NCBI RefSeq assembly: GCF_000226095.1
Contig: NC_016472.1
Location: forward strand, 3,534,001-3,598,000
Origin: Thermothelomyces thermophilus ATCC 42464
Taxonomy: Eukaryota > Ascomycota > Sordariomycetes > Sordariales > Chaetomiaceae
DNA length: 64,000 bases
Direction of reading: 5' to 3'
Shown piece after piece: positions 3,211-54,413 of this stretch. The notes under the pieces are model-generated. The model saw nothing but the letters and a program-made list of their open reading frames with translations, had not been told where the DNA came from and ran no database searches. Each line of letters starts with the position of its first letter. Position 1 is the stretch's first letter. The position numbers and the translations under genes were made by a program.

Positions 3211-3306
3211 GCGCGCGCGGGGACCCCCGAACACGGTGCCCAAAATTTTCGGCGCAATCAATCTCGCTGCACGCGCGTCATCATCCCGAAGGCAAAATAC
3301 GCGACC

Positions 3307-3354: not shown

Positions 3355-3405
3355 AGAGCAACACCCTGTGGAGAGCCCGGGCGCCTAACCGGACTCGCTG
3401 GATGA

Positions 3406-10329: not shown

Positions 10330-13300
10330 AGCCGTTACAGCCAGGAAGCTCCTAAGCAGGGATATAGTAGTGGTCTTTAAGGATAAGGCCACTAAGGATT
10401 AGTATTCGGCTAACAAGCGATAGGTAGCCACAGCCTTTAGAGAGGAGGCTAGGGAGGTCGGCAAGGCCTATATGGTCCTAGCCAAAGGGATCCGAAGGGA
10501 GGAACTATAGGGGGTCAGCGAGCAGGACTTTAAGGGGGCCGTAGGCCTTTAGTCGATCGAGACGGTCAAGTTCCGGCTGCCGAAGAGCCCGCAAAAGAAG
10601 TAGGCTACGGTACTCCTAGGCCTACGAGACCTCGAAAAGGCCTGGAAAGCCTATAACGAGGGCGTGGTCTAGGATGCCTAGGTACTAGACTACGAACCCT
10701 ACTAGGCTGCTCTAGAGCCAAGGTAATGCTATAGGTATTAGAGCTTTGGCTATACCTAACGGTACTACTAGCGGCCGGCCCGTTACGGCCGTTACGGCGT
10801 AAAAGCCTATAGGAAGGGAAGGAAGACTAGGGAGGCCTAATGCCCTACCTACTCTAACTAACTCCCGTGTAGGTATACAGCCTATAGGGGCCCCTATATA
10901 GCCTAGTATAGGGGCTGCCCAAAGAAAGTCGAAGCCTAGGAGAGGGCTAGGGAGGCCTACTAGTATAGACCCTAGACCTTCTAATTACTAGAGTAACTAT
11001 ACTAGAAGGTAGCCTTCGAGTTTAGTAGCTAGCTAGAAGACGACGACCACTACCAAACCGGGGCTAAATACCCCTATAGGAGGCTTACTATAGCCTAATA
11101 GGTAGCTAGGAGTGCCTTGTTCGATGCCTAACAGACCTGTATCTCCTTTCTATAACCTAGAGCCCCCTCCCTCTTGTAACTAGCTAAGGGGGCAATAGCT
11201 ATAGAGCCTATTACTACTATACCCTCGTCCTCTACTCTAGCTACCTTAAATGTAAATTAAGATCCTTTAGTAAAATACCTAAGGTAATAAATAGGCCCTT
11301 AAGGTCCTACTAGAAAAGGCTAAATATAACCTACTAGCTATCTAAGAGCCGTAAATCAACTAGTTTATAAGGTTAATATACTACCCCTAGGCTTTGAAAT
11401 ACTACTATAACGAACCTAACTCAGACTTCTTCTAAAAGGGTTCAGACGAAGGTAGATTGAGCAGGACAAGCAGGCAAGTCATCTAAGGGATTCAGTGAAG
11501 CCAAAGGGTTTACAACAACACTAGAGTTGTCTCTCATAGTAATTAGCAATACTTGGTATAAGTACTGTGATTATAGGTTACTATCACTGGTGAACTCTTA
11601 GAGTCCACCTAACGAGTGACTATCTATATATATATATAATCCTAGTGATCACTCCTGATCACGGTGATCGTGAGTGATCGTATGGTGGTGATTACCCTGA
11701 TCGCTAGTGAGCGTAGTGATCACTGTGCTTCCTATGTTGTAATTGGTCCTTTCGTTCCTTCGGCTTGACTGGCCATTTGTTTAGGCGGCATCTGCATGTA
11801 TATTTCTGTGACAACTACCTAGTTTATAAACCTAAGGGCAAGGCAGCTATTCTAGTAGCTAAACGCTTCCTAGTTAGCTAGTAGGACTATTTAGTAGAGG
11901 AGAACTAGTATAAGGTAACCTTTCTAGCCCTAAGAGAGAGGGGGTTCGAGCTCTAGTTAGTCTATAATAACAAGGGGGAGCAGGCCCTCTTATAGGACCT
12001 ACTAGCCTTACCTTGGCCAACCTACCCCCTAGTTCTTATAGGTAACTTTAACCTCTACTACCTAGTCTAGGACCTATTCGATAGGCTTAGCCTGGGGGCT
12101 AGGGACCTCCTTAGCCTTATAGACTAGTAGGACCTCGACCTATATACGCCCTATAGCTAGGTTACTAGGGCCCCCTAGGGGGACTAATATAGCCGGCCTT
12201 CTATAATAGACCTATTCTAGGCCTCGGCCGGGCTAAAAGCGACCTATAGGGATATTATAGAACATAGGAAATCTAACTACTACCTATAGGCTCTAAACGT
12301 CTCTTTTTAGGGGACTAATAGGCCTATACTAGCTAGTAAAGGGTAGGACTAGAAGAGCCTAGACGAGGAGGTTATACGGGCTAAGGTGGCCTACCTCTTA
12401 CTCCGGCTTGGTAGGTAGGTATCGGCCCCGGCCGGGCCTATCTTCTAAGGCCCGGAGGAGCTTCTATAGGCCTTCGACAGGCTTATAGAGGCCTTTGAGG
12501 AAATAGCTACGGTCTCGGCTCCGGTAAAGAAGGCTAGTATAGGTAGTAAACGAGCTTAATAATAGACAAAGGAGGTTTAAGAGGCCCGGAAGAGGGCTAA
12601 GGAGGCAGAGAGGGCTTATAGGGGCACCCTAAACCCCTATATATAGGAGGTACTTCAGCAGGCCCTATAGGACTAGGCTAAGACTATTATGGCCGCGAAG
12701 ACCAAGAGCTAGAGAGCTACGTTACAGGAGGTAACTAACCGGCCAGACCTGTTATAGAGGCCAGAGTGGTAGGCAAGGCTATAAAGCTACCTACTGGTTG
12801 ACCCTCTAAAGCTCCTAGCCTTCGAAGGAAGGCTTATAACCTACTAACAAAAGGCTAGGGCTCTGGCCGATAAGTTCTTTCCGAACCTAGAAACAGACCT
12901 ATTAGATATTAACAACCTGGATCTGAATGACTACTAGGAGCCGAAGTTTAAAATAAGCTAGGAGGTTATAGTAGGCGAAGTTAGGGTAGTACTAGCTAGA
13001 GCAGCCCTATAGAAGGCCCTAGGGGAAGACCTTCTCCCTATAGGCCTATTAAAGGCCTATAGGCGGCCGCTCTACCGGATACTAGCTAAACTAGCCTTAG
13101 AAAGCCTACGGCTTGGCTATTTCCTAGCCTAGTTTAAAAGGGCTAAGATAGTAGTCCTCTATAAGCCTAGTAAACCCTTATAAGCCTACTTTACCCTGGG
13201 TGGCTATAGACCTATAACGCTCTTACTAATAGTAGGCAAGGTACTAGAGGCTATAGTTGCCTAGAAGGTAATAGCTATTATAGAGGCCTATAGGTTTCTC

Positions 13301-18700: not shown

Positions 18701-20940
18701 GTTAGGGCAGTACTAGCTAGAGCAGCCCTATAGAAGGCCCTAGGGGAGGACCTCCTCCCTATAGGCCTACTAAAGGCCTATAGGCAGCCGCTCTACCAGA
18801 TACTAGCTAAACTAGCCTTAGAGAGCCTACGGCTCGGCTATTTCCTAGGCCGATTTAAAAGGGCCAAGACGGTGGTCCTTTGTAAGCCCGGCAAACCCCT
18901 ATAGGCCTACTTTACCCTAGGTAGCTATAGGCCTATAGCACTCCTACTAATAGTAGGTAAGGTACTAGAGGCTATAGTTACCTAGAAGGTAATAGCTATC
19001 GTAGAGGCCTACGGGCTTCTCCTAGCCAAATAAATAGGTAACTAGAAACATAGGTCTACCAAACTAGCTATCTAGCTTATTATAGCCTAGGTTTAGGAGG
19101 CTTAGAGGTATAAGGCGGCTACCTCCCTCCTATAGCTCGATATCTTAGGGGCTTTTGATACTGTTAACTATACCCGGCTACTAGCTACTTTATAAAGCTA
19201 GGGCTTCCTAAAGTAGTTAGTAGTCTAGGTTAGAGAGTGGCTACGGGATAGGATAGCTATCCTTTACTTCGATGGCTAGGAAATAAGAGATATAGTAATA
19301 AGGGCCAGGGTCCCCTAGGGGTTACCCCTTTCCCCTATACTATTTATCCTTTATATAGCCTCTCTTTACTAAGCTATTTGCTAGGCTTGCCCTATAGTTA
19401 GTTTAATAGGCTTTACTAACGATATCAACTTTCTAGCCTTTAGGAGGGCCGAGGAGGCCTATAACGGTCAGCTATAGAGGGCTTAAAAGGCCTACCTATA
19501 GTAGGTAAAGACCTAGGGTATAGCTTTTACCCTGGAAAAGTACGAACTTATCTACTTTAATAGGGGCCGGAAATAGTAGTCGCGATCGCTAGAGTTCCTA
19601 TAGCCTAGAGGGGGTACTACTACTATAGCCTTGTCAAAGTTAGCTAGATTCCTAGGGGTCTAGCTAGACTAGAGGTTATAGTAGGGCCCTTACTATATAA
19701 AGGTAGCTAAAAAGCTAGAAACCTAGGAGTTTGCCCTAACTAGGCTTGCTACGAAGACCTAGGGCCCTAGCCTCCTATAAGCCTACAAGGTCTATACTAA
19801 GTGTATCCACAGCACCCTAGCTTACAGGGCCTCGAACTTCTATAAGCTTACCAAGCCAGGGGGCAAGCTAAAAGGCTCTGCTAGGGAACTATCGAAGGCC
19901 TAATATAGGGCCCTTCAAGTAGTTACTAAGGCCTATAAGGCTACCCCTATCCGGTGCCTCGAAACGGAAGCCTAGGTACCGCCCCTTGACCTCTATCTTA
20001 ATAAGAGGCTAGCCGACTTTGAAGCCAAGCTCGATTAGCTACTTCTATAGACCGGGACAGGCTTAGGGGCCTCCCGGGTCCCTGCAAGGGCTCTTATCCA
20101 ACAGGCCTATAATAGGCTAAGCCAGAGGTTCCGGAAGAGAAGGGCTAGGACAAGGGGTTAGGAGCCAAAGCCTATAGCCCTAGAAGTAGCAGGGTTGACG
20201 ATCCGGTAGTAGGTTTAGGAGGGCTATAGAGGGGGTTAACCCCCCCTATAGACCGTATAGAGGAGGCTATAGGCTACGGAACTAGCTATAGTAGCTAGCT
20301 AGAGCAACCATTAGAGGGCCGACTAAGCTAGTAGGAGGATATAGCACGTGTCAGATAAAGACCCCCCGTACCTAGTTTTTATAGGGGAAGGCCTATAAAG
20401 GTACTAGGGCCTAATGAAGGCCTAGAGCTCCCTACTAGTATAGGCCTATACAGGGGCTATTAGCCTCTATGACTTCCTATTTAGGGTTTAAGTCCTAGGG
20501 GTTAGTACCCCTTACTATGCTTATAGCTAGGGGAGGAAAACTGTAGAGCACCTAGTCGTATGGTGCCCAAACCTACTAAGAAGCCGAACGTGAGAATCCT
20601 AGGAAATATAGTCGCAAAGGGACCTAGACCTCGTTCTACAGGGTATAGGGGCCTATAACTATTAGTTAGCAAGGAGGGTTTCATAGTGGCTAATGGACCT
20701 AGGGAGGCTCCCGGAATACTACCTCGTAAGGAGACTAGAGCGGGAAGGAAGGCCTCTATAGGGCTATTCTAGCTACTTCTCCTTTTCTTTGTAATGTATT
20801 AGTATTCTAGATCTAGTGTTAAAGGAGGGATAGAGGTTTTCATCCGGCCTTTATAGGTACGGTTTCCTTTATATATAACTAGAGAGGCTCTAGTATACTT
20901 ATTAGTATAACGGTATAGGACTAATAATAATAATAATAAT
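15747..20940 (+). mobile_element. LINE copy 2, full length (RIP-degraded)
   Basis: A 5.2-kb copy running from the shared 5' end (CTTCTCTTACATC) to the TAA tail at 20921-20940. It contains the ORF1 zinc-knuckle block (about 16860-17080), the endonuclease with intact GDFNL (near 17761) and the reverse transcriptase (RT), whose catalytic motif reads FTND near 19410. It has the empty site for the solo LTR seen in copy 1. Its 3' tail abuts 28S rDNA sequence. All frames contain many TAG/TAA stops, so it is inactive. Confidence 0.87.
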
Positions 20941-23792: not shown

Positions 23793-24240
23793 TGTCACGG
23801 ATAAGCACATAGACGGCCCGGCAGGCTGCAGCCAGGACACGGGACATTCCAACAGCCAATCACTTGACGGACCAATCAGAAGATTATCACTGCCAAGACT
23901 AAGGTCTTCACTAGTGATAATAACATATCACCGTCGACAACACGGAATCACGGAACAAAAGGAGAAATAGTACTAGTAATAACTATTAAAAAAGGATAGA
24001 TAATTATATATATATAGCTAGCTAGTCACTCGTTATAGTAGACTCTAGGAGTTTACTAATAATAGTAACCTATAATCATAGTACTTATACTAAGCATCAC
24101 TAACTATTATAAGAGATAACTCTAGTATTATTATAAACCCTTTAGCTTTACCAAATCCCTTAGACGACCTATACACTTATCCCGCTTGATTTACCTTCGT
24201 CTAAACCCTTTCAGAAGAAGTCTGAGCTAGGTTCGTTATA
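23793..24240 (+). repeat. 5' LTR of element 1
   Basis: 448 bp, from TGTCACGG to GTTCGTTATA (GTTCGTCACA in the 3' copy, i.e. two CpA-to-TpA changes). A TATATATATA box lies near 24008-24018. From the box onward it resembles the element 3 LTR; before the box it does not. Confidence 0.95.
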
Positions 24241-24267
24241 CGTTGCTATTACTCCCTTTATTCTATC

Positions 24268-25460
24268 ATGGTTTAGGACAAAGGTGATTTCGACCTTGAC
24301 ATTGATATAGCTACTAACGTCACGGCCGAATAACTGCTTACCTAGCTTAGTTAACTCTAGCAGTAGATCTAGGAGTTAGACTAGAGAGATAAGGTTACTT
24401 AAGCTCGGATTAAAGAACTCGAGAACGGCGAAAAGCACTTGTAGAAGCTAGTTAATGAGGCTTACGCCAAAATTAAGGCACTCGAAGGCGCTAAAGCGAG
24501 CCGTATCAAGATTAAACTACCTAGCAAATATAGAGAAACTAAGGAGGATCTTGTAGGATTCCTGACAAACCTCTAATCTTACTTCTAGCTTAATAACGAT
24601 AAGTTTCTAGACGATAAAGCTAAAGTCCTTTATATAGCTACGAGACTAGAGGGCAAGGTACTTAGATGGTTTAAGCCTATATAGAATGACTATCTTACTA
24701 AGGAAGACGAAGACGACCGAGACGCGTTTATATAGGCAGTCTTTTGATCCTATGACCGTTTTGAAGAAGAGCTTTAGAAGGTTTTTAGCGATAAAGACAA
24801 GAAGATTTATATATAAGAAAGACTTGCTAGTCTTCGATAGACTAAGTTAGTAGCCTCTTATGCTATATAGTTTAGATAGGATATACTTAAGTCTTAGCTT
24901 AATAATAAAGTATTAATATAACTATTCTATAATAGCTTAAAGGAGAAGGTTAAAGACAAGCTATATAAGTATAACTAGCCTAAGACCCTAGATAAATATA
25001 TTATATAGGCTATTAAAATCGATAATTGACTCTATATATAAGAGTAGTAGAAATAAGGTCAAATAAATAGAACTATAGTTAAGGCTAATGATAAGAAAAA
25101 ACAAGTATACGTTAGTACCTTATATAGGACGTATCCTAGAGCTATAGATATGGATATAGTATAGAAGCAGGATTAAAAGAAGATAACTAAAGACAAGTCT
25201 AATATTACCTACTATAACTATAGAAAGAAAGGGCATTATAAGCGAGAATATTGAAGCCTAAAGAAAGAGTAGAAAATAGTCCCTAGAAAGGAAATTACGG
25301 CTATCGACGAAAATACCAAGGATGTCATCGAAGTAGCGGCTACAAGCTATAAAGACAGGGATAGCGACACGGATAGTCTCGGACACGATGGCGACGGTAA
25401 AGACGAATAAGTACCGTACTCTAAACTGGTCATAGTAGACCTAGAGACAGGTCTTGCCAA
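24268..25460 (+). pseudogene. Element 1 gag with CCHC knuckle
   Basis: Starts at ATG 24268. If TAG/TAA are read as Gln, a coiled-coil N-terminus is followed by a retrotransposon gag core: LPSKYRETKEDLVGFL, LEGKVLRWFKP and YDRFEEELQKVF. A nucleocapsid knuckle near 25211-25252 reads YYNY.KKGHYKREY, where the spacing says the Tyr residues were Cys (C-x2-C-x4-H-x4-C). It would form the particle and bind RNA. Inactive. Confidence 0.8.
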
Positions 25461-28400
25461 ATAGGACACGGTAGGAGAGTATATACTACCAATTTTGATT
25501 CTCTTAGCCCTAAGGTAGTAGGGTTTTATAGTTATATAAAGGTAGGATGGATCGTGGACAACCGATACCTAAGGAATCGAAAGACCTAGACCTAATGTTT
25601 TATTCCTCTAGGAACGAATCGAATAGTATCGTAACGAAGTTTTCCGGCTTAATACGGAACTATATAAATGGGATAGACGCTTAATTTGACTTGCCTAGTA
25701 GAGTAATAAGATAAGGGACAAGATAAGGAAACTCCGACGTATTATAGAAACTATCAAAGAGGAATAGCCTATGACGTATAATAGGCCTAATAGCCATGCC
25801 GAGCATTTTAACAATTAGTAACTTAGCTACGACGTATAGAACCCTAAGTACTAGTTTATACGCGCAAACCGTAGAAAAGATAAATATACGTGGGAAAACT
25901 ACTAGAAAAAACACTCCTACCTTAGCATTAGAGTACCTATAGTCTATATATAGTAGGAAAGATTTAGAAAAGAATTCTAATACCTTCTAGGCGACGCTAT
26001 ATAACTGTACTCGTAATACAAAGTATATATATAAGTGCCCTAGTTCTAGTATATGTTATACGAATGCTAATACCACTTTCGTGACAAATTCAAAAATAAT
26101 TACTAGCCAACCCGACAAGGAAATGAGAACGGAAGCCTCTACCCTATAGAATAGGTCTATAATATAGGAAACAGAGCGGCCGAATTGCTTTAGAAGATCG
26201 AAGCCCGCGATCTAGAAGGTATTACGGTAGTACTAAAACGAGCCTAGCCTAGGTACTACGGAATAGGATAAAACATATAGGACTCGTGCCGGAGTAACGA
26301 CTGCCTCTACTATACGGACGAAAAGAAATCGCGGATCTAGGAGCTTTAGATAAAGCTATAGCACGTATGACGAAAAGCAGAACGGACCTAATGGTAGGAA
26401 GCTATAAGCACTTAATAGCTTATAGAAATGAGTACGATTGATGAAGCTACTATTAGCCGAATAACTAAGGAGGTTAGTACTAACCTAGAAAACGGGTTAG
26501 GGCCCTTCAAGGGGCCTAAAAACCATTAACGCCTATATAGCGGTGAGTGGTAGCGTAGTATAGGAGGAACTAGTATGAGAAACCACTATATCAAGACCTC
26601 CTAGTAGAAATATAGGAAATCGCTATAATCTTTAGACGATAGCGGTAAGATAAGCGACTATAGATAATAGTATAATAGAGATAGCACGAAATGCTTATAC
26701 TAGTAGATAGTAGAGTAGAGATAAACCTAATTTCGCCAACGCTTGTAAATTAGCTATAGATACCTTAGAGAATAAAGTAGAAGTATAGTATAGTCAAAGG
26801 GCCATTTCCGACGTAATAGGTATATAGGGAGACCGAACCGATCGATATCACTATAGTAAGGAAGACTATAATAGTCGTATTTAGTATTATAGATATAGGT
26901 AACGATAAAGATATAATATTAGGGTTACTATAATATAAAGATTATAACCTAGATATTAGCTAGAAGAATAGTAGCTACCTATGACCCTAAACGAAGTTAT
27001 ATTTAACTAGTAAAATAGGGAGTATATAAGGATCGTAAGCAGACAATACTCAAGGGAAGGCATGTCCTACGGATCTACCGCAAGAGACGGACAGTGGTAG
27101 GCAGATCACTACGGACTCTAGAAAAAGCGGCATAACGACACCGACATTACGACAGGAGGAACAAGCTAAACCACCAATAGCTATTCTCTCCGTTAACGAA
27201 TACAGAGCACTATAACTAGAGCAGTAGGTTAAGACAAGAGAAATCGCTAGTATCGCTATAGACGGAACCAAGTTCGTATATTATCAGAAAGCCAAAAGAC
27301 GAGACAAGACTAGGGAAGTACCGAAGGAATATAAAGGACACCTAGCATTTGAACCGAAGCATCTAGAAGAACTACCAGAGCACGGCCTATAGGATTACAA
27401 GATCAAACTCAAGAAAGGAGCATGATTAAAGTTCTTTAAGATTTACTATATAAGCTAGATATAGAACGAAGAACTTAAGCGATATTTAGAGGAGAACCTT
27501 TGAAGAGGATATATCTGCCTGTCGATATTGCTAGTAGGCTACCTAATTCTATTTGTGCCTAAGAAAGATAGAAAGCTATAGTTATATATTGACTATTGGT
27601 AACTTAACGAATAGACTATGAAAAACCAATACCTATTACCGCTAATCTTACGGCTCTAAGATTAGTTAGTAAGAGCCTAATATTTCATACATCTTGACTT
27701 GCTATCGGCCTATAACTATATACGGATTAAAGAAGGCGACAAGTGGAAAATAGCCTTTAGGACACCCTATAGCTATTATAAGTACCTTGTCATGCTATTT
27801 GGACTAATAAACGCGCTAGTAACGTTCTAAGCCCCAATTAATCAAGCTATCTAACCCTTTCTTGACAAATTTACAGTATATTATCTTAATAATATACTTA
27901 TCTTCTCTAAAACGATAGACAAACACCGGAAGTATATAAAAGTAGTATTAGACGCATTATATATATATAAGCTATTAGTTAATAAGGAAAAGAGCAAATT
28001 CTACGTTAGGAAAATGGTATTTTTAAGATACGAAATATCCCTAAGACAAATCTAGATAGAACCCTTAAAGGTTAAAGCTATCAAGGATTGGCTATAACCA
28101 ATATTAGTTACGGAAGTATAAAGTTTTATTAGGTTTACGAACTTCTACCGGATGTTTATTAGGAACTTTAGAACGATTATACGACCTTTATACGAACTTA
28201 CTGGGAAGAACGCTAAATTCTTATAGGAAGAGCAATATAAGTAAGCATTTACGTAGATCCGTGACGCTATTACTAAAGATCTAGTACTAGTACTACTAGA
28301 CCCTAAGAAGCCATTTAAGGTAGAAACGGACGCTTTAGACTATACCATCGGAGGACAATTAGAATAATAAGATAAACAAGGGAAGCTACATCCTATAGCC

Positions 28401-30236
28401 TTCTTTTTAAAGAAGCTTGATAGACTACATCTTAATTATCTGATCTATAACAAGGAACTACTTACAATTGTTAAAGCTTTTAAGGAATAGCAACTATACC
28501 TTAGCGATATAATTAAACTAATATAAGTATATACGGATTATAAGAATTTACGGTACTTTACGACGATAAAGGAGCTTAATAGATAACAAATATAATAGGT
28601 AGAATTCCTTGTAGAATTTAATTTTGAGATCCGCTATAAGAAGGGCAAAGAGAACGTACAAGCGGACGCCTTAAGCCGATAAACGGATCATATAGAAGGA
28701 CAAACAGAAACAACGCCACCGTTATTCAAGGAACGAATAGACAGAACGCTATATTACGAAACGTAGACACCTATAGAAGATAATCTACTTGACTCATTCC
28801 TAGAATATTACGCAATCTTTCGAGAAGAAAGGATTAACAAGGCATAGTATCAAGTAATACCTAGACTAGTAGTACCTAATGGAGTAGAAGAAAAAGATAG
28901 GAAACTCTGGTACCAAGGCAAAGTATACATCTACAACGGGGATTAATAGCTACGAATGATTCGAGAACTCTACGAATCGAAACTCGGAGGATATAAAGGA
29001 GTTACGAAGACTATTGTATAAGTCAAGAAACATTACGACTTTCTATAGCTAACGACACAAGTTAAGGAAGTCGTACGGAGCTATGACATCTATAATCGAA
29101 GTAAAACGGCACAATATAAGCCATATAGGCTACTTTAGCCACTGCCAATAGCTAACAAACTATGGAGTTTAGTTACAATAGACTTTATTACGAAATTGTT
29201 AGAATCTAAGGATACGGCTATAGGGGTAATCTACGATAGTATTCTCACTATAGTAGATTGCCTAACTAAATAGGTATACTTCTTTCTCTATAAGGAGTCC
29301 TAGATAGCTAAATAGCTAGCAGACGTAATCTATTGGCAAGTCGTATTAGTATACGCTTAGCTATAGGAATGGATTACCGATAGAGACACCAAGTTCGTAT
29401 CGAAGTTCTAGTAAGCATTAATATAACGATTAGGCGTCAATAGCAAGCTATTAACGGTATATTACCTATAGACTGACAGACAAACAGAGTAACTAAACTA
29501 AGTTATCGAGTAGTACCTTTATTCTTACGTTAACTACTAGCAAGATAACTAGGTCATACTATTACTAATAGTATAACTCGCTTATAATATAATGCTAATA
29601 GAAACGACCAAAGTTATACCATTCTTTGCGAACTATAGATATAAAGTAGACCTTAGGCAAGGACTAGAGGTTATAGTGCCGAGAGTAGCAGTCAAAGTGA
29701 AATAAATATATATACTATATAAGAAGCTTAAAAACGAACTTAAGTTTATTAGAACTAGAATAAAGAACTACTATAACAAATATAGGCTCGAAGGACCTCG
29801 CCTAGAGAGAGGAGACAAAGTCTACCTAATTATACGAAACTTATAAACCAAACGACTAAACACGAAGCTAGACTTTAAGAAGGTCAGACCCTTTGTTATC
29901 AAGGAACGAATTTCGACATCTAACTACCGACTATCGTTACCGTCATCTATATAATTACAGACAGATGTTTTTTATATTTTACTTCTCGAACTAGTGCCAA
30001 AGAACGCTAAAATCGCTATAAACATCGAAGCAAAAGACGAAGAGGAAGAATAGGACGTCAAAGAAATTCTAGATTTACGTATCATTAATAGGGAACTATA
30101 GTATCTAGTTAAATAGCTTAATTTTAGACTAGAGGATAACTTATAAGAACTAGTTAAGAATTTAAACTACCCTAAGAAACTAGAACAGTTCCACTAGCAG
30201 AACCCGGATTAACTAAAGGAAAACCTAGGATAGAAC
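25461..30236 (+). pseudogene. Element 1 pol: protease, RT, RNase H, integrase, chromodomain
   Basis: Readable through RIP stops. A coiled-coil region near 25600-25790 and a Cys/His-containing region (HFRDK near 26090; C-x4-C near 26285-26300) precede the protease, which reads VDSRVE near 26703 (expected DSGA). RT carries YLNN at 27882-27893 in place of YLDD, after a VDYRQLN-like block near 27590. RNase H (about 28260-28680) and integrase (about 28930-29700) follow. The C-terminus is a chromodomain (about 30050-30210: VKEILDLRI, YLVK.LNF, ED..) ending EQFHQQNP. The chromodomain assigns it to the chromoviruses, which use it to target chromatin. Confidence 0.82.
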
Positions 30237-30806
30237 TAAAGACAGCGCCCTAGTCGATAGTATCGATAGCATCATTAATCTATGACGAGGGCATAGTAGG
30301 CGCCTCTTATCGCTCTTACCGCTTAACCTCCTCTAACTCGTCTAAGGTCGACAGACTATACGCTACCATATTAGCACCTTTCTCTACTAAAAACTCTTTC
30401 TACTGATAAAGATACTAGAGCCGTATAAGCTTTTCGGACAACTCGCGCTAGGCTTCTTCTAGACGGTATTAGGATTTATCTAGCTTAAGTTCGGTACAAC
30501 GTTTAACATCCTTAATATGACGTTACTCCTAGAGAATACGATCTACTAGAATAAATATTAGGAATCACATTTAAAAAAAAAAAAGGAGACGTGCTTATAG
30601 GAAGAAAGCGATATGCTAGAGCTATTGTAAGAACGACCTTAACGAACGTAGGCTTCGTAACGCTTTATACGCGCGATCATTTTATAGACAAGGCCTTACG
30701 ATACGTACTAAGAGTAAGGCATAACAACAAAACCGTTCTTAGCAATGTTCTAAGCAAGGGAAGTATAGTAACGTATAAAATATAACTTCCGTTTCTCTAT
30801 CAGCAT
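30154..30806 (-). pseudogene. Antisense two-exon gene in element 1: Zn2Cys6-like cluster plus coiled coil
   Basis: Lies between pol and the 3' LTR on the opposite strand and overlaps the pol 3' end. Exon 1 (30806-30599) opens with ATG. At codons 31, 34, 41, 50, 53 and 60 it has Tyr codons, all TAT/TAC as expected from TGT/TGC after RIP, giving the spacing C-x2-C-x6-C-x8-C-x2-C-x6-C. That spacing matches the fungal Zn2Cys6 cluster. A 53-nt intron (30598-30546) has a mutated donor (ATAAGC from GTAAGC), CTAAT and TTCTAG. Splicing joins SSL to DRILQEQRH. Exon 2 is a charged coiled coil with KEFLVEKGA and STLDELE, ending at TAA 30154-30156; about 199 residues. Element 3 has the same arrangement. 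Function unknown; a DNA- or RNA-binding dimer is inference. Confidence 0.7.
30546..30598 (-). other. Intron of the antisense gene in element 1
   Basis: Minus-strand donor now ATAAGC (GTAAGC before RIP), a T-tract of 12, branch-like CTAAT and acceptor TAG at 30548-30546. The same frame shift is solved by an intron at the same codon in element 3. Confidence 0.65.
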
Positions 30807-30933
30807 TTTGTTAATATAGCGACTATAACGTAGAAATAGGAAGAATGTAGTACTTATAAGCGAAGGGTTATTAACGCTATTTGAAACGGCCTAAGAGGGC
30901 TTTCGGGTTGAAAGCCTTAAAGGAAGGGCATCG

Positions 30934-31381
30934 TGTTACGGATAAGTATATAGACGGCCCGGCAGGCTATAGCCAGGACACGGGACATTCCGACAGCTAA
31001 TTACTTGACGGACCAATCAGAAGATTATTACTGCCAAGACTAAGGTCTTTACTAGTGATAATAATATATCACCGTCGACAACGCGGAATTACAGAGTGAA
31101 AAGAGAAATGGTACTAGTGATAACTATTAAAGAAGGACAGATAATTGTATATATATAGCTAGCTAGTTACTCGTTATAGTAGATTCTAGGAGTTTACTAG
31201 TAATAGTAACCTACAATTACAGTACTTATACTAAGTATCGCTAACTACTGTGAGAGATAACTCTAGTGTTGTTGTGAACCCTTTGGCTTTACCAAATCTC
31301 TTAGACGACCTGTACGCTTGTCCCGCTTGATTTACCTTCGTCTGAACCCTTTTAGAAGAAGTCTGAGCTGGGTTCGTCACA
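30934..31381 (+). repeat. 3' LTR of element 1
   Basis: 448 bp, TGTTACGG to GTTCGTCACA, the same length as the 5' LTR and differing mainly by transitions. Confidence 0.95.
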
Positions 31382-43628: not shown

Positions 43629-46600
43629 CTAGCTAATAAGCAATAGGTAGCTATAGCCTTTGGAGAGGAGGCTAGGGAGGTCGGCAGGGCCTATATGGTC
43701 TTAGCTAAAGGAGTCTAGAAGGAAGAGCTATAGGGGGTTAGCAAATAAGACTTTAAGGGGGCTATAGGCCTACACTCGATCGAAATAGTCAAGTTCTAGC
43801 TGCTAAAGAGCCTGTAGAGGAAATGGGCTATGATACTCCTAGGCTTATAGGACCTCGAAGAGGCCTAGAAGGCCTATAACGAGGGTGTAATCTAGGATGC
43901 CCGGGTGCTAGACTACGAGCCTTACTAGGATGCTCTGGAGCTAAGGTAGTGCTATAGGTACTAGAGCTTTGGCTATACCTAGCGGTACTACTAGCGGCCG
44001 GCCTATCATAGCCGTTATAGCGTAAAGGCCTATAGGGAGGGAGGGAAGACTAGAGAGGCCTAGTGCCCTACCTACTCTAACTAACTCCCTTATAGGTATA
44101 TAGCCTATAGGGGCCCCTATATAGCCTGGTATAGGGGCTGCCCAAAGAAAGTCAAAGCCTAGGAGAGGGCTAGGGAGGCCTATTAGTATAGACCCTAGAC
44201 CTTCTAACCACTAGAACAACTATACTAGAAGGTAGCCTTCGAGTTTAGTAACTAGCCGGAGGATGACGACTATTACTAAACTAGGGCTAAATGCCCCTAT
44301 AGGAGGCCTACCCTAGCCTAATAGGCAGCTAGGAGTGCCTCATTTAATGTCTAATAGACCTATATCTCCTTTCTACAGCCTAGAACCCCCTCCCTCTTAT
44401 AGCTAGCTAAGGGTGTAATGGCTATAGAGCCTATTACTACTACTATACCTTCGTCCTCTACCCCGGCTACCTCGAATATAAATTAAGATCCTTTAGTAAA
44501 ATACCTAAGGTAACAAATAGGCCCTCGAGGTCCTACTAGAGGAGGCTAAATACGACCTACTAGCCATCCAAGAACCGTAGATTAACCGGTTTACAGGGTT
44601 AACATACTACCCCTAGGCTTCGAAATACCACCTTATTTACAAACCCAAGGGCAAAATAGCTATCCTAGTGGCTAAACGCTTCCCGGTTAGCCAGTAAGAC
44701 TATTCGGCAGAGGAGAATTAGTATAAGGTAACCTTTCTAGCCCTAGGAGAGGAGGGGTTCGAGCTCTGGTTAGTCTATAATAATAAGGGGGATCAGGCCC
44801 TCTTATAGGACCTACTAGCCCTACCTCGGCTAACCTACCCCCTAGTTCTTATAGGTGACTTTAACCTCTACTACCTAGTCTAGGACCTGTTCGACAGGCT
44901 TAGCCCGGGGGCTAGGGACCTCCTTAGCCTTATAGACTAGTAGGACCTTAACCTATATACGCCCTACAGCTAGGTTACCAGGGCCCCCTAGGGGGACTAA
45001 CGTAGCTAGCCTTCCACGATAGACCTATTCTAGGCCTTAGCTAGGCTAGAAGCGACCTATAAGAATATCATAGAACATAGGAAATCTGACTACTACCTAT
45101 AGGCCCTAAACGTCTCCCTCTAGGGGACTAATAGGCCTATACTAGCTAATAAAGGATAAGACTAGAAGAGCCTAGATAAGGAGGTTACGCGGGCCGAGGC
45201 AGCCTACCTCCTACTCCGGCTTGGTAGGTAGGTATTGGCCCTGGCCGGGCCTGTCTTCCGGGGCCCGGAGGAGCTTCTATAGGCCTTCGATAGGCTTATA
45301 GAGGCCCTTAAAGAGATAGCTACGGTCTCGGCCCTGGCAAAGAAGGCTAATATAGGCGGTAAACGAGCTTAATAGTAGATAAAGGAGGTTCGGGAGGCCC
45401 GGAAGAGGGCTAAGGAGGTAGAGAGGGCCTATAGGGGTACCCTAAACCCCTATACGTAAGAGGCACTTCGGCAGGCCCTATAGGACCAGGTTAAGACTAT
45501 TACGGCCGCGAAGACCAAGAGCTAGAGAGCTATATTATAGGAGGTAACTAACTGGCCGGACCTACTATAGAGGCTAGAGAGGTAGGTAAGGCTATAAAGG
45601 TACCTACCGGTCAACCCTCTAAAGCTCCCGGCCTTCGGGAAGGAGGGCTTATAACCTACTAATAGAAGGCTAGAGTACTAGCTAATAAGTTCTTCCCGAA
45701 CCTGGAAGTAGACCTATTAGATATCGACGACCCGGATCTAAACGACTATTAGGAGCCGAAGTTCGAAATAAGCTAGGAGGTTACAATAGGCGAAGTCAAG
45801 GCAATACTAGCTAGGGCGGCCCTGTAGAAAGCCCTAGGGGAGGACCTCCTCCCTATAGGCCTATTAAAGGCCTATAGACAGCCGCTCTACCAGATACTAG
45901 CCAAACTAGCCTTAGAGAGCCTACGGCTCGGCTATTTCCTGGCCTGGTTTAAAAGGGCTAAGACAATGGTCTTCTATAAGCCTAGCAAACCCCTATAGGC
46001 CTACTTTACCCCGGGTAGCTATAGACCTATAGCGCTCCTACTAATAGTAGGCAAGGTACTAGAGGCTATAGTTACCTAGAAGGTAACGGCCGTCGTAGAG
46101 GCCTATAGGCTTCTCTTAGCCAAACAAATGGGTAACTAGGAACATAGGTCTACCAAACTAGCTATCTAGCTTGTTATAGCCTAGGTTTAGGAGGCTTAGA
46201 GGTATAAGGCAGCTGCCTCCCTCCTATAGCTCGACATCTTAGGGGCTTTCGATACTATTAACTATACCCGGCTACCAGCTACTTTATGGAGCTAGGGCTT
46301 CCCAAAGTGGTTAGTAGTCTAGGTTAGGGAGTGGCTATAGGACAGGGTAGCTATCCTTTACTTTAACGGCTAAGAAATAGAGGATATAGTGGTAAGGGCT
46401 AGGGTCCCCTAGGGGTTACCCCTTTCCCCTATACTATTTATCCTCTATATAGCCTCCCTTTACCAGGCCATTTGCCAGGCTTGCCCTATAGTTAGCTTAG
46501 TAGGCTTTGCCGATGATACTAACCTTCTAGCCTTTAGGAGGGCCAAGGAGGCCTATAACGGTTAACTATGGAGGGCTTAGAAGGCCTACTTATAGTAGGC

Positions 46601-46918: not shown

Positions 46919-46923
46919 TAGGG

Positions 46924-47341
46924 TGTGACGAACCTAACTCAGACTTCTTCTAAAAGGGTTCAGACGAAGGTAGATTAAACAGGGCAAGCAGGCAGGTCGT
47001 CTAAGGGATTTAGTAAAGCCAAAGGGTTTATAACAACACTAGAGTTATCTCTTATAGTAATTAGCAATACTTGGTATAAGTACTATGATTGTGAGTTACT
47101 ATCACTAGTGAACTCTTAGAGTCTACCTAACGAGTGACTATCTATATGTATATATAATCCTAGTGATTACTCCTGATTACGGTGATCGTGAGTAATCGCA
47201 TAGTGGTAATTACCCTAATCGCTAGTAAGCGTAGTAATTACTGTGCTTCCTATGTTGTAATTGGTCCTTTTGTTCCTTTGGCTTGATTGGCCTATTTATG
47301 CTAATGGTCTAGGTAGCATCTATATATATATTTCTATAATA
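46924..47341 (-). repeat. 3' LTR of element 3
   Basis: 418 bp, running on the + strand from TGTGACGAACC to TTTCTATAATA (TTTCCGTGACA in the other copy). Confidence 0.93.
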
Positions 47342-47459
47342 CGATACCTTCCCTTTAAGGCTTTTAACCTAAAAGCCCTCTTTTAGGCCGTTTTAAATAG
47401 CGCTAACATCCCTTATATTCCTTATATATATTTTTCTTCTTAGCTCTTTATTACCCTTT

Positions 47460-48082
47460 ATACTATTAATTATACTATCTAATATATATAGATCCCTAGT
47501 ATCTATTCGCCGTAAGCGTTTAGCTTAGTTTATTTCCGATCATAGGTTTATAGTAATAGCATGTTCCTATTATATAGAGTATAACCGAGTATATAAAATG
47601 ATTGAAAAATCTTATCATTACAAGGCTTATATATGTCAGGGTCATACTTATAATAGTTCTAGCGTTCCGGTTTCCTCTTATAAGTTCCCATTTCCTTATA
47701 AGGGTACGTCTCTAATCGTAATGTAGTAGATCGTATCATACACGAGCAACGTCATTTAAAGGCTAAAGAGAAAGAGGCCGAAGCCTTGCTACAAGAATAT
47801 TAACGCAAAGCTTCTAGGGCGTTAGCCTGTCTAACTCGGGTTTGTAAATAACGAGAGTTCCTAGTAGAGAAGGGGGCAGACATAGTTATATAGGGTTTGT
47901 CGAATCCAGACGAATTGGAGGCGGTAGAATAGCAGGAATCGGGGGCCGTTATATAACTTAATGGTGGTGTTAACGTTATTAACTAGGGCGCTATTTTCGG
48001 TTTTATCCTAGGTTTGCCTTTAGCTAATCTAGGTTCTACTAATAGAACTATTCTAGTTTCTTAGGGTAGTTTAAGTTTTTAA
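47460..48082 (+). pseudogene. Antisense two-exon gene in element 3: Zn2Cys6-like cluster plus coiled coil
   Basis: Opposite to pol and adjacent to the 3' LTR, as in element 1. The start is approximate: the aligned start codon is now ATA (47460), expected from ATG after RIP. Exon 1 carries one Cys and five Tyr codons at C-x2-C-x6-C-x8-C-x2-C-x6-C (first Cys at 47562). Intron 47680-47726 (donor ATAAGT from GTAAGT, CTAAT at 47712, acceptor GTAG) joins VPVSSL to DRIIHEQRH. Exon 2 is a coiled coil with REFLVEKGAD and SNPDELEAVE and ends at TAA 48080-48082. Protein similarity to the element 1 copy is clear while much of the nucleotide sequence has diverged, which supports real antisense coding. From memory, similar hypothetical proteins occur in fungal genomes; I have not checked. 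Confidence 0.7.
47680..47726 (+). other. Intron of the antisense gene in element 3
   Basis: 47 nt with a RIP-altered donor (ATAAGT), branch-like CTAAT and acceptor ATGTAG. It interrupts the same Leu codon as the element 1 intron although the intron sequences differ. Confidence 0.65.
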
Positions 48083-51000
48083 CTAGTTCCTATAAGCTAT
48101 CCTCTAGTCCGAAATTAAGCTATTTGACTAGATATTATGGGTCCTTATTAATAATATATAAATCTAGAATTTCTTTGACGTCTTATTCTTTTTCCTTATC
48201 TTTTACTTCGATATATATAGCAACCTTAGTATTCTTTAGTACTAGTTTAAGAAGTAAAATATAAAAAACATCTATCTATAGTCGTATAGATAATAGTAAC
48301 GATAATTAGTAATTAGATATCAAAATTTGTTCTTTAATAATAAAGGGTCTAACCTTTTTAAAGTCTAGCTTTATACTTAGTCGTTTAGTTTATAAGTTTT
48401 ATATAATTAGGTAGACTTTGTCTCCCCTCTCTAGGCAAGGTCCCTTAAGCCTATATTTGTTATAGTAGTTCTTTATTCTAGTCTTGACAAACTCGAGTTC
48501 CTTTTTAAGTTTCTTATATAGTATATACATTTGTTCTACTTTGACTACTGCTCTTGGCACTATAACCTCTAGTCCTTGCCTAAGGTCTACTTTATATCTG
48601 TAGTTCGCGAAGAACGGTATAACTTTAGTTATTTCCGTTAGTGTCGTATTATAAGCGAGTTATACTATTGGCAATAGTATAACCTAGTCGTCTTGCTAGT
48701 AGTTAACGTAAGAGCGGAGGTACTACTTAATAACTTGGTTTAGTTGCTCCGTTTGTCCGTCAGTTTACAGGTAATATGCCGTTAATAGCTTGCTATTAAC
48801 GCCTAATCATTATATTAACGCTTGCTAGAACTTTAATACGAACTTAGTATCTCTGTTAGTGATCTATTCTTGTAGCTAAGCGTATACTAATATAACTTAC
48901 TAATAGATTACGTCTACTAGCTATTTAGCTATCTAGGACTCCTTATAAGGAAAGAAGTATACCTATTTAGTTAGGCGATCTACTATAGTAAGAATACTAT
49001 TATAGGTTACTCTTATAGTTATATCCTTAGATTCTAGTAACTTTATAATAAAGTCTATTATAACTAAGCTTCATAGTTCATTAGCTATTAGTAATAGCTA
49101 AAGTAGCCTATATAGCTTATATTATACCATTTTGCTTCGATTGTAAATGTCGTAGTTCTATATAACTTCCTTAACTCGTACTATTAACTATGGAAAGTCG
49201 TAGTGTTTCTTGACTTGTACGACAGTCTTCGTAACTCCTTTATATCCTCTAAGTTTCGACTTGTAGAGTTCTCGAATCATTCGTAGCTATTATTCCCTAT
49301 TATAGATATATGCTTTGCCTTAGTACCAGAGTTTCCTATCTCTTTCTTCTACTCCGTTAGGTATTACTAGTCTAGGTGCTGCTTAATATTATATCTCGTT
49401 AATCCTTTCTTCTTAAAAGATTATATAATATTCTAGGAACAAGTTAAGTAGATTATCTTCTATAGGTGTCTACGTTTTATAATATAGTATTCCGTCTATT
49501 TGTTCCTTAAATAATAGTAGCGTTATTTCTATTTATCCTTCTATATAATCTATTCGTCGGCTTAAGATATCTACTTGTACGTTCTCTTTGCCTTTCTTAT
49601 AGCAGATCTTAAAATTAAATTCTATAAGAAATTCTACCTATCGTATTTGTCATCTATTAAGCTCCTTTGTTATTATAAAGTATTATAAATTCTTATAATC
49701 TATATATACTTATACTAGTTTAATCGTACTACTAAGGTATAGTTACCATTCCTTGAAAGCTTCGATAATTGTAAGTAATTCCTTGTCATAGATTAGATAA
49801 TTAAGATATAGTCTATTGAGCTTCTTTGAAAAGAAGGCTATAGGATATAGCTTCCCTTATTCATCTTGTTATCCTAATTGTCCTCCGATAGCATAGTCTA
49901 AAGCGTCCGTTTCTACCTCGAATGGCTTCTTAGGGTCTAGTAATACCAGTACTAGATCTTTAGTAATAGCGTCGCGGATCTACGTAAATACTTGCTTGTA
50001 TTATTCTTCCCATTAGAATTTAGTATTCCTCTTTATAAGTTTATATAAAGGTCGTACGATCGCTCTAAAGTTCCTAATAAACATTCGGTAAAAGTTCGTA
50101 AATCTGATAAAGCTTCGTATTTCTGTAACTAACGTTAGTTATAGCTACTCCTTAATAGCTTTAACCTTAAAAGGTTCTATCCGGATTTATCCTAGGGATA
50201 TTTTGTATCCTAGAAACACCGTTTTCCTGATATAGAATTCGCTCTTTTCCTTATTAACTAATAGTTTATACGCGTATAGCGCGTCTAGCACTGCTTTTAT
50301 ATACTTCCGGTGTTTATCTATTGTCTTAGAGAAGATAAGTATATTATTAAGATAATATACTGTAAATTTGTTGAGAAAGGGTTAGATAGCTTAATTAATT
50401 AGGGCTTAGAACGTTGTTAGCGCGTTCGTAAGTCTAAATAGCATAATAAGGTACTTATAGTAGCTATAGGGTATCCTAAAGGCCGTTTTCTACTCGTTGC
50501 CTTCTTTAATCTATATATAGTTATAGGCTAATAGTAAGTTAAGATACGTAAAATATTAGGCTCCTATTAACTAATCTCGGAGCTATAAGATTAGTAGTAA
50601 CAGGTATCGGTTTTTTACGGTCTATTCGTTAAGTTACTAATAGTTAATATATAACTATAGCTTTCCATCTTTCTTAGGTACAAATAGGATTAGGTAGCCT
50701 ACTAGCAATATCAATAGGCAGATATATCCTCTTTAAAGGTTTTCCTCTAAATATCGCTTAAGTTCTTCGTTTTATATCTAGCTTATATAGTAAATCTTAA
50801 AGAACTTTAGTCATGCTCCTTCCTTAAGCTTAATCTTGTAATCCTATAGGCCATATTCTAGTAATCCTTCTAGATACTTCGGTTCGAATGCTAGGTGTCT
50901 TTTGTATTCTTTCAGTACTTCCCTAGTCTTATCTTGTCTCTCGAGTTTCTAATAGTATACAAACTTAGTTCTATCTATAGCGATGCTAGCGATTTCTCCT

Positions 51001-53968
51001 GTCTTAGCCTACTACTCTAATTATAATGCTCCGCATTTATTAACGGAGAGAACAGCTATTGGCGGTTTGGCTCGTTCCTCCTATTACGATATCGATGTTG
51101 TTATACTGCCTCTTCTAGAGTCCGTAGTGGTCTGTCTGCTATTATTTGTCTCTTGTAGTAGATCTGTAGGATATGCCTTCCTTTAAGTATTGTCTGCTTA
51201 TGATTCTTACGTGCTTCCTATCTTGCTAGTCGAATATAACTCCGTTTAGGGTTATAGGTAGCTACTATTCTTCTAGCTAATATCTAGGTTATAATCTTTA
51301 TACTATAGTAACTCTAATATTATATCTTTGTCGTTACCTATATCTATAATACTAAATATGATTACTATAGTCTTCCTTACTATAGTAATGTTAATCGGTT
51401 TAGTTTCCTTATATATCTATTATATTAGAAATAGCCCTTTAATTATACTATACTTCCGCTTTATTCTCTAGGGTATCTATAGCTAATTTACAAGTGTTAG
51501 CGAAATTAGGTTTATCTCTACTCTACTATCTATTAGTATAAGCATTTTATACTATTTCTATTATACTATTATCTATAGTCGCTTGTCTTGCTACCATCGT
51601 CTAAAGATTATAGCGATTTCCTATATTTCTACTAGGAGGTCTCGATATAGTAGTCTCTTACGCTAGTTCCTCCTATACTACGCTATTACTTGCCGCTATA
51701 CGGGTATTAATAGTTTCCGGGCCCCTTAAAGGGCCCTAACCTGTTTCCTAGGTTAGTGCTAACCTCTTTAGTTATTTAGCTAATAGCGGCTTCGTTAATC
51801 GTACTCATTTCTGTAAGCTATTAAGTACTTATAGCTTCCTACTATTAAGTCTATTTTACTTTTTATCGTATATACTATAGCTTTATCTAAAGCTCCTAAG
51901 TTCGCGATTTCTTTTTATCCGCGTAATAGAGGTAGTCGTTGCTCTAGCACGAGTCCTATATATCTCGTCCCGTTCTATAGTACCTAGGCTAGGCTTGTCT
52001 TAGAACTATCGTAATGCCTTCTAGATCGTGGGCTTCGATCTTCTAGAGTAATTCGGCTGCTTTATTTTCTACATCGTAGACCTATTCCATAGGGCAGAGG
52101 CTTCTATCCTCATTTCCTTGTTAGGTCGGCTAGTGATTGTTTTCGAATTTGTTACGGAAGTGATAACAGCATTTATATACTATATATTAGAACTAGGGCA
52201 CTTGTATATATACCTCGTATCGGGGGTATAGTTATATAGCGTTGCCTAGGAGGTATTAGAATTCTTTCCTAAATCCTTCCTATTATATATAGACTATAGG
52301 TACTCTAATGCTAAAGTAAGAGTATTTCTTCTAGTAGCTTCCTTATATACGCTTGTCTTTTCTATAGTTTATATATATAAACTAGTATTCTAAGATCTAT
52401 ATATCGTTACTAAGTTACTAGTTATTAAGGTACTTAGTATAGCTATTAGGCCTATTATATATTATAGGCTATCTTCCTTTAATAGCTTCTACGATATGTT
52501 AGAGTTCCTTTATTTCGTCCCTTATCTTATCACTCTACTAGGTAAGTTAAGTTAAGCGTTTATCCTATTTACGTAGTTCTATATTAAGTCGGAAAACTTC
52601 ATTATAGTACTATTCGATTCGTTCCTAAAGGAATGGAATATTAGGTCTAGGTCTTTCGATTCCTTAGGTATCGGTTATCTACGATCTATCCTACCTCTAT
52701 ATAACTATAAAACCCTACTACCTCAAGGCTAGGAGAATCGAAATTAGTAGTATATATTCTCCTACTATATCCTATTCGGCAAGACCTATCTCTAGGTCTA
52801 TAGTGACTAGTTTAGAGTACGGTGCTTATTTATCTTTACCATTACCGTTATATCCGAGACTATCTATATTACTGCCCCTATCTTTGTAGCTCGTAGCTAC
52901 TACTTCGATAACGTCCTTAGTAGTTTCGTCGATAACCGTAATTTCCTTTCTAGGGACTATCTTCTACTCTTTCTTCGGGCTTTGACATTCTTGCTTATAG
53001 TGCCCTTTCTTTCTATAGTTATAGTAGGTAACATTAGACTTGTCTTTAGTTGTCTTCTTCTGGTCTTACTTCTATGCTATATCTATATTTATAGCTCTAG
53101 GGTATGTCCTATATAAGGTACTAACGTATGCTCGCTTTTTCTTATTGTTAGCCTTAACTGTAGTTTTATTTATTCGGCCTTATTTCTATTACTCTTATAT
53201 ATAGAGTTAATTATTAATTTTAATAGCTTATACGATATATTTGTCCAAGGTCTTAGGCTAATTGTACTTATATAGCTTATCTTTAACCTTTTCCTTTAAG
53301 CTATTATAAAATAGTTATATCAACGCTTCGTCATTAAGCTAAGACTTAAGTATATCCTATCTAAACTATATAGTATAGGAGGCTACTAACTTAGTCTATT
53401 AGAGATTAGCAAGTCTTTCTTATATATAAATCTTCTTATCTTTATCGCTAAAAACCTTCTAAAGCTCTTCTTTAAAATAGTTATAAGATTAAAAGACTGC
53501 CTATATAAACGTATCTTAGTTATCTTTATCTTCCTTAATAAGGTAGTTATTCTATATAGGTTTAAACTATTTAAGTACCTTACCCTCTAGTCTTATAACT
53601 ATATAGAGGACTTTGGCTTTATTATCTAGAAACTTATTATTATTAAGTTAGAAGTAGGATCAAAGGTTTATTAGGAATCCTATAAGATCCTCCTTAGTTC
53701 CTCTATATTTACTAGGTAGTTCGATCTTAATACGGCTCGCTTTGGCGGTTTCAAGTGCCTTGATTTTGGTATAGGCCTCGTTAACTAACTTCTATAAGTG
53801 CTTTTCACCGTTCTCGAGTTCCTTAATTTAGGCTTAAGTAGCCTTATCTCTCTAGTCTAACTCCTAGATCTGCTACTAGAGTTGACCAAGCTAAGCGAGC
53901 AGCTATTTGGCCGTGACGTTAATAGCGATATCGATATTAAGGTCGAAGTTACCTCTATTCTAAACTAT
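48083..53968 (-). pseudogene. Element 3 gag-pol
   Basis: Minus-strand relic colinear with element 1: gag from about 53968, zinc knuckle near 52985-53030, protease near 51530, RT catalytic motif (YLNN for YLDD) near 50345-50360, integrase around 48500-49300 and chromodomain near 48130-48190. Stops are of the TAG/TAA type throughout. Confidence 0.8.
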
Positions 53969-53995
53969 AATAGAACAAAGGGAGTAATAGCAACG

Positions 53996-54413
53996 TATAA
54001 CAAACCTAACTTAGACTTCTTCTAAAAGGGTTTAGACAAAGGTAGATTAAACAGGATAAGTAGGCAGGTCGTCTAAAGGATTCGATAAAGCCAAAGGGTT
54101 TATAACAACACTAGAGTTATCTCTCATAGTAATTAGCAATGCTTAGTATAAGTACTATGATTATAAGTTGCTATTACTAGTAAACTCTTAAAGTCTATCT
54201 AACGAGTAACTATCTATATATATATATAATTCTAGTGATTACTCCTGATTACGGTGATTGTGAGTGATTGTATGGTGGTAATTACCTTGATTGCTGGTAA
54301 GCGTAGTGATCACTGTGCTTTCTATGTTGTAATTGGTCCTTTTGTTCCTTTGGCTTGATTGGCCTGTTTGTGCTGGTGGTCTAGGCGGTATCTGCATGTA
54401 TATTTCCGTGACA
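53996..54413 (-). repeat. 5' LTR of element 3
   Basis: 418 bp, TATAACAAACC to TTTCCGTGACA on the + strand; matches the other LTR of the element in length. Confidence 0.93.

Follow-up and report, generated by a model that had tools for sequence, protein, structure and literature searches.

A predicted antisense Zn2Cys6-like coiled-coil protein of fungal chromoviruses and its co-variation with the U3 region of the long terminal repeats

The stretch of DNA analysed here, referred to as the window, comprises 64,000 nucleotides (nt) of Thermothelomyces thermophilus ATCC 42464 (contig NC_016472.1, positions 3,534,001 to 3,598,000) and contains a chromovirus, element 1, that has been heavily altered by repeat-induced point mutation (RIP). 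Between pol and the 3' long terminal repeat (LTR) of this element, on the opposite strand, lie the remains of an intron-bearing gene whose intact relatives are predicted to encode a small protein with a Zn2Cys6-like cluster and a coiled coil. Comparison of three element types within the same genome (38.7 Mb, 7 contigs) shows that this gene differs together with U3, the promoter end of the LTR, and we consider whether the protein might regulate the LTR of its own family.

An intron-bearing gene antisense to pol

The features of element 1 are as follows.

23793..31381, plus strand: chromovirus element 1, type A, heavily RIPed, with gag, pol with a chromodomain, and two LTRs
23793-24236: 5' LTR of element 1
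23793..24003, plus strand: U3 of the 5' LTR, type A, with five GTGAT/ATCAC cores kept
30154..30545, minus strand: antisense gene exon 2, for a predicted coiled coil and a short acidic/aromatic motif; stop codon at 30154-30156
30546..30598, minus strand: intron, phase 1; donor ATAAGC in the window copy, acceptor TTCTAG kept
30599..30806, minus strand: antisense gene exon 1, ATG at 30806, located by tblastn of residues 1-73 of protein P0002, with the splice site placed by comparison with copy L061
30627..30716, minus strand: six-position putative zinc-cluster segment, codons 31-60, reading C-x2-C-x6-C-x8-C-x2-C-x6-C in un-RIPed copies
30864..30933, strand not given: conserved spacer from the antisense leader to the LTR, with a purine tract and a 7-bp stem (30898-30916)
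30934-31381: 3' LTR of element 1, 89.6% identical to the 5' LTR over 444 nt
30934..31144, plus strand: U3 of the 3' LTR, type A, with GTGATAA/TTATCAC iterons; cores kept near 31055, 31068 and 31117

An un-RIPed sister copy (L061), 79.6% identical in DNA to element 1 along 7.6 kb, displays the whole element. Its LTRs (450 bp each) are identical to each other, its gag frame (1464-3767) and pol frame (3722-7516) are both intact from stop to stop, and the last part of exon 2 of its antisense gene (8060-7392) overlaps the 3' end of pol tail to tail by about 125 nt. Pfam matches in three pieces of L061, all outside the integrase core, comprise Retrotrans_gag (7e-12), RVT_1 (9.7e-40), RT_RNaseH_2 (4.3e-15) and Chromo PF00385 (E 3.2e-14), and the element is a chromovirus, that is, a Ty3/gypsy element with a chromodomain. 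A CCHC knuckle is present in gag; past it, the later half of the long gag frame (2601-3767) has more Cys and His and could be another accessory domain.

The minus-strand frame from ATG 30806 carries Tyr at codons 31, 34, 41, 50, 53 and 60, every one of them TAT or TAC, as described in an earlier annotation made from the letters of the window alone (the sequence-only reading), which had proposed that RIP produced them from Cys codons. The pattern [CY]x2[CY]x6[CY]x8[CY]x2[CY]x6[CY] has four matches in the six frames of the window (127,996 residues): the antisense gene of element 1, that of a second chromovirus (47562), and two in a TAY simple repeat near 57.9 kb. Across 30 copies, namely the window copy and 29 others (30 of the 40 near full-length matches among 42), the six codons are exclusively TGT/TGC or TAT/TAC; Cys occupies the successive positions in 27, 7, 13, 1, 3 and 10 of the 30, and hence each position in at least one copy. 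Length changes among these copies are of 9, 9 and 3 bases in exon 2 and are grouped in the poly-T of the intron; exon 1 has a one-base gap in copy L011. The intron of un-RIPed sister copies runs from GTAAGC to TTCTAG in phase 1, whereas the donor is ATAAG in all 30 RIPed copies, presumably changed from GTAAG. The window copy itself is dead, with four stops in exon 1 and 11 in exon 2.

Intact copies were found elsewhere in the genome by searching with P0002, a 'metaclust' entry of six members whose spliced state shows that it derives either from a transcript or from a correctly modelled gene. With 150 candidates scored there were at least 217 matches, so that the counts are lower bounds. Exon 2 occurs at 99% identity and with no stops in at least 18 places (L031-L048); in all 18 of these un-RIPed places exon 1 is open with its six Cys all present, and splicing at GTAAGC...TAG (introns of 66-80 nt) yields exactly P0002 (196 aa). 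Three elements fetched whole have LTRs of 449-451 bp that are 99.8-100% identical. The intron recurs at the same place and in the same phase in one type B copy (GTAAGT...CAG) and one type C copy (GTCCGT...CAG). On these comparisons the antisense frame is a genuine intron-bearing protein-coding gene, lying between pol and the 3' LTR. The conversion of six Cys to Tyr and the short intron envisaged by the sequence-only reading are both borne out, and its DELE motif lies within LSTLDELEEV of exon 2; that reading would have been refuted by intact copies in which the antisense frame was closed or the six positions were not Cys, and none of the 18 intact copies is of either kind.

Amid many heavily RIPed copies, the 18 un-RIPed ones with an identical antisense protein look like a recent burst that escaped RIP. 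Two other gene models were rejected. Codon 29 was first favoured as the start, since codon 19 is a stop in most of the RIPed copies (30 in all), and was dropped because the frame is open from the ATG matching 30806 both in P0002 and in the intact copies; GTCTCC was considered as the intron donor, and the intact copies instead have GTAAGC.

A predicted zinc cluster and coiled coil

A search with P0002 recovered 16 proteins, and a search with a four-row profile at least 96 among the 8000 candidates sharing most words. Named relatives come from Chaetomium, Corynascus, Canariomyces, Staphylotrichum, Verticillium, Colletotrichum, Metarhizium, Cordyceps, Apiospora, Thyridium, Neoarthrinium, Xylariaceae and Pseudogymnoascus. 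The six-Cys pattern is present in 70 of 98 proteins, with the spacing x2, x6, x8, x2, x6 in P0002 and most of the 70; of the remaining 28, most are without all or part of exon 1, and some that possess it are broken or different (for example P0005, P0030, P0053, P0066, P0090). Four of the 98, from three other species (P0007, P0016, P0024, P0026), are gene models that run on into antisense of pol, and as their tails match the antisense of pol in L061 (E 3.7e-13 to 3.1e-5 in a small search), the gene has the same antisense position in those species. Scans of viral contigs (65 pattern matches) and of bacterial and archaeal contigs (87 pattern matches) confirmed no relative.

The protein, of about 196 residues, would consist of an N-terminal tail, a Zn2Cys6-like cluster, a long coiled coil whose length varies by heptads and, at the C-terminus, a short acidic/aromatic motif. 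The six Cys are invariant in alignment A3, which is partly circular since its 55 rows were chosen from the 70 six-Cys proteins (15 left out), and they are invariant too in alignment A2, whose four rows were found by similarity alone. Of 55 proteins, 51 have 9, 16, 23, 30 or 37 residues in the coiled-coil stretch between two conserved columns, in the seven-residue steps that a coiled coil demands, and the other four have 34. Close to the C-terminus is a conserved V(V/I)DW(N/G)A(V/I)F-like motif, which resembles an acidic/aromatic activation motif. Judged from these residue patterns, the fold and the binding of metal are predicted, and the layout proposed by the sequence-only reading, that of a small fungal transcription factor with a metal cluster followed by a coiled coil, is supported.

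Fungal Zn2Cys6 clusters (PF00172) have the spacing C-x2-C-x6-C-x5-12-C-x2-C-x6-8-C, within which the Cys of the antisense protein family fall. PF00172 is the Pfam family touched most often (26 of 55 members at E<=1, best 0.0011), scoring 16.0 bits with P0009, 8.4 with P0007 and nothing with P0002, and the database name 'Zn(2)-C6 fungal-type domain' already stands on P0007, P0026, P0054 and P0055. Aligned by hhalign with ten host Zn2Cys6 clusters, the family gave E 3.8e-4 and a probability of 36% with all Cys in register, the best values among controls being 0.0071 for 20 Cys-keeping shuffles and 0.017 for 20 full shuffles. None of 88 PF00172 matches in the genome lies within 1.5 kb of the 23 antisense genes checked. 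The predicted cluster is Zn2Cys6-like, perhaps related to PF00172 and outside it; of the Zn2Cys6 signature in the sequence-only reading the six-Cys spacing stands, and the Pfam cut-off is missed wherever scores are shown.

Joint divergence of the gene and U3

Aligned 3' ends of copies of types A (L061), B (L064, L065) and C (L076, L078), from the last 1.5 kb of pol to the end of the LTR, were compared segment by segment. The DNA identities between types, in percent, are as follows.

A-C (L061-L078): pol 95, overlap 91, exon 2 50, exon 1 53, leader 40, 70-nt spacer 100, U3 54, R-U5 93
A-B (L061-L064): pol 89, overlap 82, exon 2 59, exon 1 53, leader 48, spacer 87, U3 46, R-U5 92
B-C (L064-L078): pol 89, overlap 85, exon 2 52, exon 1 50, leader 50, spacer 86, U3 57, R-U5 96
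B-C, second pair (L065-L076): pol 88, overlap 85, exon 2 55, exon 1 46, leader 44, spacer 80, U3 54, R-U5 96

Overall, the end of pol is 88-95% identical between types, the antisense gene 46-59% and U3 46-57%. The spacer that separates gene and U3 is identical at 70 of 70 positions between L061 and the C copies, and at 87% against L064. Within types, the segments are 78-91% identical in A (L061 and the window copy, with RIP), 76-96% (L064-L065) and 70-88% (L064 and the window copy) in B, and 92-100% in C (L076-L077). The stem GGCTTTC...GAAAGCC at 30898-30916, just before the purine tract, is shared unchanged by a type A, a type B and a type C copy despite the differing gene and U3 around it.

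Linkage was assessed by searching each U3 against the genome, scoring 40 candidates for each and counting a gene match within 700 nt as a pair. Of 120 U3 matches, 53 were so paired, and in every one of these the U3 and the gene were of one type (A 18, B 16, C 19), the gene types having been assigned by hand from three protein searches; the other 67 matches, with no listed gene beside them, are 5' LTRs, solo LTRs or genes not listed.

Eight between-type comparisons outside the pol overlap gave dN of 0.33-0.58 and dS from 1.65 to saturated, the differences being inflated where the RIPed type B copy L064 is involved, and as judged from these rates the antisense gene is under purifying selection. 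Since the A and C copies are un-RIPed (L061) or little RIPed (L077, L078), RIP cannot mimic the A-C signal, and saturated dS beside a pol that is 95% identical points to old alleles that were exchanged, and not to fast evolution in place. In a tree of 33 rows, in which T. thermophilus B and C were represented by exon 2 only, type A groups with a Canariomyces and two metagenome proteins (97/93), and type B with one Corynascus and four metagenome proteins (99/95); type C joins a second Corynascus protein, one from Staphylotrichum and three from metagenomes (95/88). On this grouping the types look older than the species.

The U3 of each type (186-211 nt) carries repeated GTGAT/ATCAC cores, five in A, six in C and nine in B (overlapping matches). 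The background density per 200 nt is 0.36 inside L061, 0.7 in the pol part of L078, 0.5 in that of L064 and 0.16 across the window. Each type extends the core differently: GTGATAA in A (3), GTGATCA in B (5, partly palindromes) and GGATCAC in C (5). For B and C, the count of the top 7-mer or k-mer was reached by none of 1000 dinucleotide shuffles. In type C the sites lie 17 nt apart with alternating orientation, and the three C copies agree in them save for one base beside a core in L077; type A sites are 27-31 nt apart. Only three of the 319 200-nt bins of the window hold four or more cores, all in LTRs of types A or B; a further two LTR pairs there contain 0-1 cores each.

Further features of the window are the following.

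46923..54413, minus strand: chromovirus element 2, type B, RIPed
47511..48070, plus strand: antisense gene of element 2, type B, with the six positions reading C,Y,Y,Y,Y,Y at 47562-47651
11410..11807, strand not given: LTR copy akin to the element 2 LTR (88.7%), with 8 GTGAT/ATCAC cores in one 200-nt bin

The LTR-like copy at 11410-11807 has the highest iteron density of any bin in the window. Weak N-terminal matches at 46446-46508 and 19352-19414 (E 0.15-0.34) were considered as a fourth element type and were set aside as chance, the frames around 46 kb holding no gene. Between 56700 and 58900 lies a low-complexity, C-rich-skewed tract with TAY repeats and internal tandem similarity, where GC skew reaches -0.68 at 57-58 kb.

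Proposed function, alternatives and known systems

We put at about even, a probability of roughly 0.5, the reading that the antisense protein is a dimeric regulator of the LTR of its own family, and that gene and U3 are exchanged as a cognate module. The protein would bind DNA in a sequence-specific manner, its likely targets being the iterated GTGAT-core sites observed in U3 (GTGATAA in A, GTGATCAC in B, GGATCAC/GTGATCC in C), and binding there would set gag-pol transcription up or down, or protect an open LTR from being silenced. As the ATG lies about 120 nt from the 3' LTR, antisense transcription probably begins within or close to that LTR. Gene and U3, which are seen to diverge together, would be inherited and exchanged together because a regulator and its sites must match, the rest of the 3' part of the element being shared, in a manner comparable to an immunity type. 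More tentatively, and at somewhat less than even odds, fungal LTR retrotransposons may possess cognate regulator/operator types, in which an antisense zinc-cluster coiled-coil protein reads type-specific phased U3 iterons, gene and U3 are swapped together between elements that are otherwise much alike, and each type regulates itself and ignores the others, as a retrotransposon equivalent of phage immunity groups.

Several observations weigh against a self-regulating DNA-binding protein. All ten proteins with scores shown fall short of the PF00172 gathering score of 21 bits. The C2-C3 loop contains 0-3 Lys or Arg (mean 1.8, n=70) compared to 4-5 in nine host factors, and a proline precedes C4 in one of 70 relatives compared to nine of nine host factors, so the usual DNA-contact surface appears weakened; the Lys and Arg of the family are located in later loops instead. 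When PDB was searched by sequence, unrelated coiled coils came first (E from 0.037 upwards), and PUT3, HAP1 and LAC9 followed at non-significant values (E 0.35-2.7). The U3 of LTR elements evolves fast, and the 53 concordant pairs, with their hand-assigned gene types, are mostly clonal descent; the independent evidence is the three between-type contrasts. The iterons of type A are weak, their counts being reached by 31 (5-mers), 249 (6-mers) and 23 (7-mers) of 1000 shuffles, and alone would not convince, while those of B and C are strong. Moreover, TGATAA in type A resembles the site of a host GATA factor.

This last resemblance fits an alternative in which the gene is genuine, the U3 iterons are bound by host factors such as those of the GATA type, and the 3' end is replaced as one block by recombination in reverse transcription. 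Gene, spacer and U3 are adjacent, so that one template switch could carry all of them, and the types appear older than the species, A grouping with Canariomyces and B and C with two different Corynascus proteins. However, the B and C cores (GATCAC, GGATCAC) are presumably not GATA sites, the core extension changes with gene type, and both the spacer between gene and U3 and R-U5 are undiverged; we regard this explanation as unlikely. An anti-silencing factor like Arabidopsis VANC, which would bind the non-coding repeats of its own element and remove silent chromatin marks in place of acting as an ordinary activator or repressor, is rather improbable. The host genome does RIP repeats, and VANC targets are reported to be often tandem repeats that vary between related elements (PMC5735166, PMC10398659), a pattern similar to that in U3; yet the arrangement of zinc cluster, coiled coil and acidic/aromatic tail looks like that of a fungal activator.

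We give less weight again to an accessory protein that binds RNA, Gag or integrase in a nucleocapsid-like or targeting role, the U3 repeats being unrelated to it. A Cys-rich basic segment with a coiled coil could bind RNA or protein, and the C2-C3 loop is without the usual DNA-contact charge, but gag already has a CCHC knuckle and the divergence of gene and U3 without the end of pol would be left unexplained. Retrotransposon antisense RNAs exist, and the frame might encode no protein, as an antisense RNA or by chance; the purifying selection on it, the intron position common to three types, lengths changing in heptad steps and relatives in many species make this very hard to credit.

The regulator of its own LTR that we favour may be compared with several known systems. 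Fungal Zn2Cys6 factors such as PUT3, HAP1 and LAC9 share with the antisense protein the six-Cys spacing followed by a coiled coil, whereas the latter is retrotransposon-encoded, lies below the Pfam cut-off where shown, and has few basic C2-C3 residues and no C4 proline. HBZ of HTLV-1 involves splicing, a promoter in the 3' LTR and a dimerising bZIP. Like the window gene it is antisense-encoded, and it is a nuclear protein (PMC11963269), but it has a bZIP rather than a zinc cluster and belongs to an animal retrovirus.

That LTR retrotransposons can carry antisense genes is long known, and reviews call the function of these genes unknown (PMC11963269, PMC7264820). The sequence-only reading was not aware of such a gene having been described for chromoviruses, a view that is in part mistaken: brtn was reported in Boty-like elements of Botrytis cinerea (Zhao et al. 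2011 Virology 417:248, as cited in PMC8365987, PMC7264820 and PMC4227169), in which it accompanies gag, ZnF, RT, IN and CHROMO domains (PMC4227169). It is also named for Sclerotinia sclerotiorum (PMC7264820), and a Monilinia transcript resembles Pol and BRTN (PMC5987419). From these descriptions brtn resembles the window gene in position, lying antisense in a fungal gypsy element in the interval from pol to the 3' LTR. The same position is taken by the antisense open reading frames of the plant Retand, Grande and RIRE2 elements (TRP28, PF04195), which occur in 97% of the Retand clusters studied and for which DNA binding and a regulatory role have been suggested (PMC11963269); these belong to a non-chromovirus plant lineage and have a different domain, zinc being unmentioned in the main text of that article. 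Thus antisense retrotransposon genes are already known, while in the literature searched, with most subscription journals beyond reach, we found neither a zinc cluster in one nor co-variation with U3 in an LTR retrotransposon.

What distinguishes the present gene is an apparent target: three types in one genome share the end of pol, the spacer and R-U5 and differ in the gene and in a promoter region with iterated sites. This turns the open question of antisense-gene function into a direct binding test, and supplies a hypothesis of function for more than 20 named 'hypothetical proteins' of fungal genomes. A comparable system is VANC of the VANDAL transposons, an element-encoded sequence-specific protein whose targets are repeats in the non-coding DNA of the element and vary between related elements (PMC5735166, PMC10398659). 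VANC is a different protein of plant elements; the U3 repeats differ with gene type, and may be the corresponding targets. If this is true, LTR retrotransposons would have a self-encoded specificity system to set beside VANC of the VANDAL elements.

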